Assembly (NCBI RefSeq): GCF_003010915.2
Contig: NZ_CP028426.1
Coordinates: 930,001 to 994,000, forward strand
Direction: 5' to 3'
DNA: 64,000 nt
Source: Gulosibacter molinativorax
GTDB taxonomy: Bacteria > Actinomycetota > Actinomycetes > Actinomycetales > Microbacteriaceae
The notes beneath the pieces were generated by a model that had not been told where the DNA came from, did no database searches, and saw only the letters and a program-made list of their open reading frames with translations. The translations under genes and the position numbers were made by a program. Shown here one piece after another: positions 59,463-60,488 of this stretch. The stretch's first letter is position 1. Each line of letters opens with the position of its first letter.

Positions 59463-60488
59463 ATGACCAGCATCTCCTCAGATCTCTCGCTCACCGAGCT
59501 CTCCATCACCCCGCCCGCCTACCGCCACGACCCCGCAGCACGCCTCAGACCAATCAACTGGAACCGCGTCACCGACGACAAAGACCTCGAAGTCTGGAAC
59601 CGACTCACCGCGAACTTCTGGCTCCCCGAAAAAGTGCCCCTCTCCAACGACATCCCCGCCTGGCAGAAAATGAGCCAGGAAGAACGCACCCTCACCATGC
59701 GCGTCTTCACCGGGCTCACCATGCTCGACACCGTGCAGGCGACCGTGGGGGAGATCTGCCAGATCCAGGACGCCCGCACCGAGCATGAGGAGGCCGTCTA
59801 CACGAACATCGCCTTCATGCAGTCCGTGCATGCCCGCTCCTACTCCTCCGTGTTCTCCACGCTCACGTCCACACCGGAGATCGACGACGCGTACCGGTGG
59901 GCGGTCGGCAACGACCTGCTGCAGGAGCGTTGCAAGAAGGTGCTGCAGCACTACTTCGGGCCGGATCCGCTCAAGCGTAAGGTCTCGTCGACGCTGCTCT
60001 CCTCGCTATTGCTCTATGCGGGGTTCTACCTGCCGTTGCACTTCTCCGTGCACGCCACGCTCACGAACACCGCCGACATGATCCGACTCATCCTGCGCGA
60101 CAAAGCCGTGCACGGCTACTACTCCGGCTACAAGTACCAGCGCGGCCTCGAAACCCATTCGCAGGCCGAGCAGCACGAGATGCGCGACTTCACCTTCGAG
60201 CTACTCGAAGAGCTGTACGAACTGGAACTGCAGTACTCGGGTGAGCTGTACGAACCGCTCGGGCTCATGGACGACGTCGCCGTCTTCGTGCGCTACAACG
60301 CGAACAAGGCTCTCATGAACCTCGGCTACCCCGGGCGATTCTCGCCCGAGGAAACCGAGGTAAACCCCGAGATCCTCGCCGCGCTCTCCCCCGGTAGCGA
60401 TGAGAACCACGACTTCTTCAGCGGTTCAGGGTCGAGCTATGTGATGGGCAAGGGAGAGGACACGACCGATGCCGACTGGGATTTCTGA
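59463..60488 (+). CDS. nrdF: ribonucleotide reductase small subunit, predicted metal-free class Ie (QSK)
   Basis: Radical-generating subunit of 341 aa. The fold and sequence are clearly NrdF ([31 protein letters not shown]), but three of the four carboxylate metal ligands are changed: Gln120 in [11 protein letters not shown] (normally Glu), Ser180 in [15 protein letters not shown] (Glu) and Lys214 in [10 protein letters not shown] (Glu). The first Asp89 and the histidines His123 and His217 remain, and Tyr127, which aligns with the radical tyrosine, is present. This is the QSK signature of class Ie, in which that tyrosine is converted by NrdI and O2 into a DOPA radical without metal. Assignment rests on alignment to known class Ib/Ie proteins, and the radical itself is an inference. 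Confidence 0.92.

Follow-up and report, generated by a model that had tools for sequence, protein, structure and literature searches.

The locus described here raises the question of why a bacterium would carry a ribonucleotide reductase (RNR) whose radical subunit has exchanged three of its metal ligands, and under which conditions such an enzyme would be used. The window (the whole stretch of DNA that was analysed, 64,000 nucleotides from Gulosibacter molinativorax) contains a complete nrdF on the + strand (59463..60488) that encodes 341 amino acids with no internal stops, and the residues of interest in its product are D89, Q120, H123, Y127, S180, K214 and H217. The first-pass annotation had predicted from these residues a class Ie enzyme in which Gln120, Ser180 and Lys214 replace metal-binding carboxylates and Asp89, His123, His217 and Tyr127 are kept. 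In a phmmer search against solved structures the closest relatives were 8rag and 8rah (533 bits each), which show the QSK R2e of Gardnerella vaginalis (Bifidobacterium vaginale) in its Tyr and its DOPA form, respectively, followed by the Corynebacterium R2F 1kgn (464 bits). The phmmer alignment with 8rag is ungapped over residues 7-341, and Q120, S180 and K214 are paired with the same three residues in 8rag and with three glutamates in 1kgn. The predicted numbering is right, and the changed residues fall on the ligand sites in alignments to both a class Ib and a class Ie reference.

In a MAFFT alignment of 88 NrdF rows, from which the short fragment L003 was left out, 82 rows read D-Q-H-Y-S-K-H at positions 89/120/123/127/180/214/217; three of these rows are the window's own protein (the original and two copies fetched again) and 79 come from the 80 loci found by homology, and the four kept residues are borne out as well. 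The other six rows read D-E-H-Y-E-E-H. One of them is L087, two (L001 and L004) are the same canonical gene of this genome, and three are the second nrdF genes that neighbour L064, L066 and L072. The three changes recur jointly under 24 genus-level labels, of which three are family, order or class names, and chance is therefore excluded as their source. Class Ib enzymes require six conserved metal ligands (four carboxylates and two histidines), and three of the four carboxylates are replaced in the NrdF of the window. It has the Q, S and K of the QSK type at these sites, retains the D, the two H and the radical Tyr, and is encoded directly downstream of nrdI and a class Ib-type nrdE, the partners expected for class Ie. 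With class Ib NrdF proteins (1kgn and the canonical copy of this genome at C1:1700140) it has the fold family and the NrdI and NrdE partners in common, but it carries Q, S and K where they have three glutamates. The residues, the match to 8rag and 8rah and the adjacent nrdI and nrdE support the assignment of the protein as a predicted QSK-type class Ie radical subunit.

By itself, the QSK enzyme belongs to a kind that has already been published and is not a new enzyme type. A study of these enzymes (PMC11846895) determined, in the portion of its text available, that the QSK enzyme of G. vaginalis is active and that it contains DOPA and metal only in traces. The same portion counts 275 QSK genes, distributed over 266 genomes that all belong to the Actinomycetota. 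It groups RNR genes that are up to 300 nt apart and does not deal with any further neighbours; it gives about 65 (elsewhere 67) species with QSK as the sole RNR and describes QSK as the sole class I enzyme in Gardnerella. The system in the window resembles that of Gardnerella (8RAG, 8RAH) in the seven active-site residues, the ungapped match and the nrdI, nrdE and nrdF genes. It differs in its gene order (nrdIEF without nrdH), in the canonical second RNR of the genome, and in a palindrome, a small gene and an FMN reductase gene, none of which was seen in the four Gardnerella loci examined. The VPK class Ie enzymes of Mesoplasma, Streptococcus pyogenes and Aerococcus likewise have replaced metal ligands and need NrdI (available portions of PMC11846895 and PMC8463856), but they carry the VPK residues and are encoded in the order nrdFIE (PMC11846895, section 6).

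The first-pass annotation had left room for this being the only RNR of the organism. This possibility is ruled out by a search of the genome (3.50 Mb, 99.5% complete), in which a second nrdF with canonical EEE residues lies at C1:1700140 and is adjoined by nrdE and nrdI, forming a complete canonical class Ib nrdIEF set at ~1.70 Mb. The barrel-family search of the genome gave the two nrdE genes and nothing else, and the class III RNR family had no match in it. Canonical-like NrdF proteins, at least 70% identical to that of this genome, were also found in 46 of the 50 QSK genomes searched, which were supplied by 50 of the 80 QSK loci. The 47 control nrdF loci used below were taken from those 46 genomes and this one, and all of them read D-E-H-Y-E-E-H. 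The loss of three ligands in a genome that also has a full canonical set could be read as the mark of a degraded, non-functional class Ib duplicate, but this is highly improbable given that the identical three substitutions are present in 79/80 named loci, that the frames of the operon are open here and preceded by two kinds of promoter motif, and that the Gardnerella enzyme is active and ~65 species have QSK as their sole RNR (PMC11846895, portion available).

At the canonical locus, a 70-codon copy of the nrdF 3' end is located ~51 kb from the gene (G000:C1:1649191-1700961; L003:1381-1593, L001:1-1107), and an integrase-like ORF, recognized by eye and with no Pfam match, directly adjoins the intact gene at its 3' end; from these two features, an island has probably integrated into the end of the canonical nrdF. 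In three Bifidobacterium loci (L064, L066, L072) the two kinds of enzyme are encoded side by side as nrdI-nrdF(QSK)-nrdI-nrdE-nrdF(EEE).

The operon in the window begins with nrdI (56752..57255, + strand, GTG start), which encodes the flavodoxin-like activase (PF07972 and TIGR00333 above cut-off; its solved relatives are NrdI), followed by nrdE (57252..59429, + strand) for the catalytic subunit (TIGR04170, 1150 bits) and nrdF. Upstream and divergent from nrdI are pckG (54652..56514, - strand), encoding a GTP-type phosphoenolpyruvate carboxykinase (Pfam PEPCK_GTP; NCBIfam NF003253 above cut-off), a metal ABC importer (51006..54740, - strand) with two ABC-3 permeases, an ATPase (ABC_tran) and a ZnuA-type binding protein, and a DtxR-family regulator on the same strand as the importer (50210..51076, - strand; Pfam Fe_dep_repr_C, FeoA and Fe_dep_repress). 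These are followed by a second DtxR-family metalloregulator gene, which is MntR-like and on the + strand (49632..50309; Pfam Fe_dep_repr_C, Fe_dep_repress and FeoA), and its product is a candidate repressor. Its best NCBIfam model is an MntR (183 bits, under the cut-off of 350) and its best solved relative is 5zr4 (228 bits). The importer is predicted to be of either the manganese or the zinc type; Mn and Zn models are mixed among its best NCBIfam matches, every one below cut-off. In Brevibacterium and Agrococcus a different importer, 26-42% identical per gene, occupies the same divergent position. Downstream of nrdF are a 102-aa ORF and a PF03358 FMN reductase gene, and in a weak scan, whose total number of sites was as high as in shuffles, the interval from nrdF to the reductase gene lacked terminator-like sites on the + strand. 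The sigma-70 promoter scan returned nothing, and the Rfam and tRNA scans gave no match. An IS110-family transposase gene (39596-40774 of the window) precedes the MntR-like gene by ~9 kb.

Two kinds of motif were recovered de novo by an unsupervised palindrome search of 39 dereplicated QSK nrdI promoters (from 69). The first is the NrdR-type box (log-likelihood 138 vs 29-34 in three shuffles), and the window has two such 16-bp boxes, ACACTAGATGTAGTGC (56677..56692) and GCACTACATATTGTGC (56709..56724), which are 32 bp or about three helix turns apart, as in NrdR regulons; both were called with what we take to be the NrdR box consensus. The second motif is AAGTTCG-N6-CGAACTT (188 vs 35-40 in shuffles), and it is represented between pckG and nrdI by the 20-bp palindrome ATGTTCGGTATGTCGTAGTC (56613..56632). 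At 21.4 bits this is the best site in the 64 kb (the next scores 14.8, and the best of five shuffles 12.3). A usable nrdI upstream region was available for 69/80 QSK and 35/47 canonical loci. Palindromes of at least 13 bits occur in 45/69 QSK promoters vs none of the 35 canonical promoters and 0.7% of 1040 shuffles, the QSK promoters being scored with their own genus left out of the training, which does not amount to full independence because of transfer between genera. The 24 QSK promoters without it include 8/8 from Streptomyces, 4/4 from Gardnerella and 6/6 of those tested from Bifidobacterium. Since QSK is the sole class I enzyme in Gardnerella (PMC11846895, portion available), the lack of the palindrome there suits the logic of a backup enzyme, but the three Bifidobacterium loci with both enzymes side by side are also without it. 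Five of the eight Streptomyces QSK loci (L016, L044, L045, L046, L048) have another palindrome, similar to ACTTAGGTATACCTAAGT, farther upstream of nrdI and ~3.1 kb before nrdF.

The core pattern of the palindrome has 49 matches in this genome vs 35 for a reversed control, and the seven that were opened among the 47 other genome matches all lie inside open frames of at least 170 codons. Palindrome-like sites within pckG of L019, L021, L024 and L051 were rejected as operators because they are positioned in coding sequence.

The palindrome is also found at a gene for metal uptake. This genome's only Nramp gene (mntH) has a site of 25.4 bits 33 bp before its ATG, so that the same motif is present at both the mntH and the QSK nrdI promoter (25.4 and 21.4 bits). 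By our reading, the 20-bp palindrome is a candidate operator of the MntR type (the manganese repressor), and manganese is the likelier signal because the QSK promoter and mntH of this genome have the palindrome in common. The first-pass annotation had proposed that the enzyme serves when iron and manganese are scarce; the manganese part of this proposal is sharpened by the common palindrome, and for the iron part no iron-type box was found. In a survey of Nramp genes outside the training set, 23/32 genomes had a match and 27/30 loci were scanned, three weak or partial ones being dropped. Half of the strong mntH genes (7/14 of those with at least 325 bits) have an upstream site of at least 15 bits, and none of the 13 weaker Nramp-like genes reaches 13 bits (shuffles 0/540). 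In L151 (25.9 bits) and L036 a site also lies ahead of the gene for the importer binding protein, and in L008 ahead of the MntR-like gene. Among the seven strong mntH genes without a site, five have a different palindrome, which is of the AAGTTAA-type in four and of the TTCAA-type in the fifth. The AAGTTAA-type replaces the CG-type in the mntH promoters of Brevibacterium and Helcobacillus (L180, L188, L189, L192), and it is possible that these sites represent a second MntR specificity.

What we take to be the MntR box of C. glutamicum occurs with no mismatch before the QSK nrdI of C. vitaeruminis and C. amycolatum, and in our reading this box and the palindrome appear to have the same GTTC core at an equal distance from the dyad. 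The presumed box was rejected for the window itself, where the best match has 5/14 mismatches and is equalled or beaten by shuffles in ~1/3 of draws.

No fewer than five genomes (G010, G012, G015, G017, G021) have a palindrome at mntH that differs from the CG-type one at their own QSK promoter, and the regulator of the module may therefore be distinct from that of mntH. A signal other than manganese (iron, zinc or oxidative stress) could then act through a DtxR-family protein that is not MntR, and the resemblance to the mntH site would be a family likeness of DtxR sites. Besides the differing palindromes, this would be consistent with the mixed Mn and Zn models of the importer and with S. pyogenes, in which the class Ie genes, of the VPK type (PMC11846895), are repressed by increased Fe as well as Mn (PMC8463856; available portions of both). 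We regard another signal as unlikely. Both promoters of this genome carry the same motif at high scores, and the motif is missing from all 13 Nramp-like genes that are not mntH. The perfect matches to the presumed MntR box before two other QSK nrdI genes also argue against it. Finally, nrdI and nrdF2 of C. diphtheriae are regulated by MntR together with mntABCD, and DtxR does not bind there (PMC13001254, portion available). That regulon places nrdI and an nrdF under the manganese repressor together with an importer, as is proposed here, but the term class Ie is absent from the available portion of the account; among the 120 of 5237 homology matches listed, no protein was named as that NrdF2 (DIP1924). 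Metal repression of class Ie is not a new idea because the C. diphtheriae and S. pyogenes accounts precede it (PMC13001254 and PMC8463856, portions available), and no link between QSK class Ie and MntR was found in the titles and abstract starts listed for open-licence PMC papers.

We consider it likely that this second nrdIEF operon, with its predicted QSK class Ie subunit, is a manganese-starvation backup under MntR-type repression at the palindrome. In the presence of manganese, an MntR-type repressor would occupy 56613-56632 and keep the QSK operon off, and the canonical class Ib enzyme, which is assumed to be manganese-dependent, would do the work. Once manganese is gone, the repressor would be released and mntH and the metal-free reductase would be induced jointly, possibly along with the divergent pckG-importer genes, and the NrdR boxes would add ordinary dNTP feedback on top. 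NrdI and O2 would convert Y127 to DOPA, and the radical would be loaded without metal. If this is true, metal-free DNA synthesis would be a regulated starvation response in many actinobacteria. The novelty lies in the 20-bp site and how widely it occurs among actinobacteria, and in the two candidate partner genes discussed below; a named site before the operon that is common to mntH, along with two named gene candidates, provides testable answers.

The genes that accompany QSK nrdF were compared with those around canonical nrdF. ORFs of at least 90 aa in a span reaching 7 kb upstream and 5 kb downstream of nrdF were clustered for the window and 80 loci vs 47 canonical loci, and profiles built from the clusters were searched across the loci; the QSK total is 80 (the window and 80 loci, minus L087, which is EEE), and the window was counted as Gulosibacter. 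The counts apply to units that are interdependent through horizontal transfer, to labels some of which are families or higher, to contigs that are sometimes cut and to profiles built mostly from QSK neighbours. The pckG gene is present in 10/80 QSK vs 0/47 canonical loci (labels 6/24 vs 0/20, p 0.025). The differences for DtxR genes (24/80 vs 3/47; the window's own MntR-like gene falls outside the distance counted) and for the importer binding protein (13/80 vs 1/47) do not reach significance when counted by genus label (p 0.48 and 0.11, respectively).

The NAD(P)H:FMN/quinone-reductase-like gene (60826..61404, + strand; PF03358 by Pfam, with matches to solved structures) accompanies 38/80 QSK vs 0/47 canonical nrdF loci, 14/24 vs 0/20 by genus label (Fisher p 3.4e-5) and 29/47 vs 0/47 in genome-paired loci. 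Its product has PF03358 in common with the YieF/ChrR/FerB-type NAD(P)H:FMN and quinone reductases (best solved matches 1rtt, 3u7r and 3svl), enzymes that reduce flavins and quinones. Most likely, the FMN/quinone reductase would keep NrdI reduced or return over-oxidised DOPA-quinone to DOPA. No paper linking a reductase of this type to NrdI or nrdF was found in the open-licence PMC literature; in the available portion of PMC5449479 the iron-responsive genes of Bifidobacterium breve include nrdF, nrdE and an FMN reductase, with distant locus tags and no bearing on linkage. In Winkia and Actinotignum (L054, L069, L074, L080) the FMN reductase gene is beside nrdF(QSK) and nrdI is absent nearby. 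A role of the reductase as a substitute for NrdI in these genera was rejected, as nrdI lies elsewhere: one copy was found in each Winkia and Actinotignum genome searched, and at least one in 15/15 genomes examined.

The second partner is a small gene of 102 aa (60469..60777, + strand) whose start overlaps the nrdF stop. It occurs in 24/80 QSK vs 0/47 canonical loci (labels 7/24 vs 0/20, p 0.011) with a length of ~100 aa across the loci. Substitution patterns indicate that the gene is real: dN is lower than dS in 9/9 pairs compared, with large dS values saturated (among them dN 0.041 and dS 0.237 for the pair with M. lylae, 0.133 and 2.62 for that with G. hominis, and 0.028 and 0.109 for two Brevibacterium). 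Its product is an orphan protein of a new family with no Pfam match; NCBIfam gave a single weak match (E 0.05) for one relative, and 21 homologues were found in ~5.8 billion sequences by a search restricted to relatives sharing short words, the named ones all being hypothetical or uncharacterised. The AlphaFold model has four helices (mean pLDDT 77), and the best hit of a fold search with it had an E of 3.0. The gene follows nrdF in Corynebacterium, Micrococcus, Leucobacter, Gulosibacter and the window, and it is divergent upstream of nrdI in Agrococcus, Brevibacterium and JB111; in 6/8 of the divergently placed loci the importer binding-protein gene comes next on its strand. In C. stercoris, another gene for an importer binding protein has at its 5' end a second, partial match to the small protein (33 residues, 45 bits). 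A candidate role for the small protein is that of an assembly or repair partner.

Both partner genes are missing from many QSK loci, and neither can therefore be a general requirement. This absence would also be expected if the two genes were passengers of a horizontally moved block with no role in the reductase, and such a block does move between families. The regulator-importer-pckG-nrdIEF block (49632-61404 of the window) is 91-96% identical in most genes in M. lylae and Leucobacter celer (L008, L009), which belong to other genera; for M. lylae, the matches to most genes of the block span 89-96%, the exceptions being NrdI (72%) and one permease (75%). The NrdF proteins of Micrococcus lylae (96%) and Leucobacter celer (94%) are closer to that of the window than any from the ten same-genus genomes searched, and the canonical NrdF of M. 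lylae is only 75% identical to that of this genome; from this we infer that the block was transferred between families. That the two genes are mere passengers is a reading we take seriously but find rather doubtful: the reductase gene is downstream of nrdF, directly upstream or farther upstream, the small gene has two different positions, and either gene is present in 0/47 canonical loci of the same genomes. Their presence also changed at least nine times (reductase) and six times (small gene) on a quick NrdF tree, which has SH-aLRT support only and 27/70 inner forks open.

We tentatively propose, with somewhat less than even confidence, that actinobacterial QSK class Ie is a manganese-starvation module in which the FMN/quinone reductase would feed NrdI or rescue DOPA-quinone and the small protein would mature or protect the DOPA radical. 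If so, both partners would be missing components of DOPA maturation. The QSK operon was not found on plasmids or phages, the best of the listed matches (30 of 498 and 30 of 738) being below 68% identical. Within the genus of the window, NrdF proteins at least 85% identical to its own are present in 5/10 genomes searched (best 90%, by identity alone), and one genome, G066, has two, 87% and 85% identical, in addition to a canonical-like one (also by identity alone).
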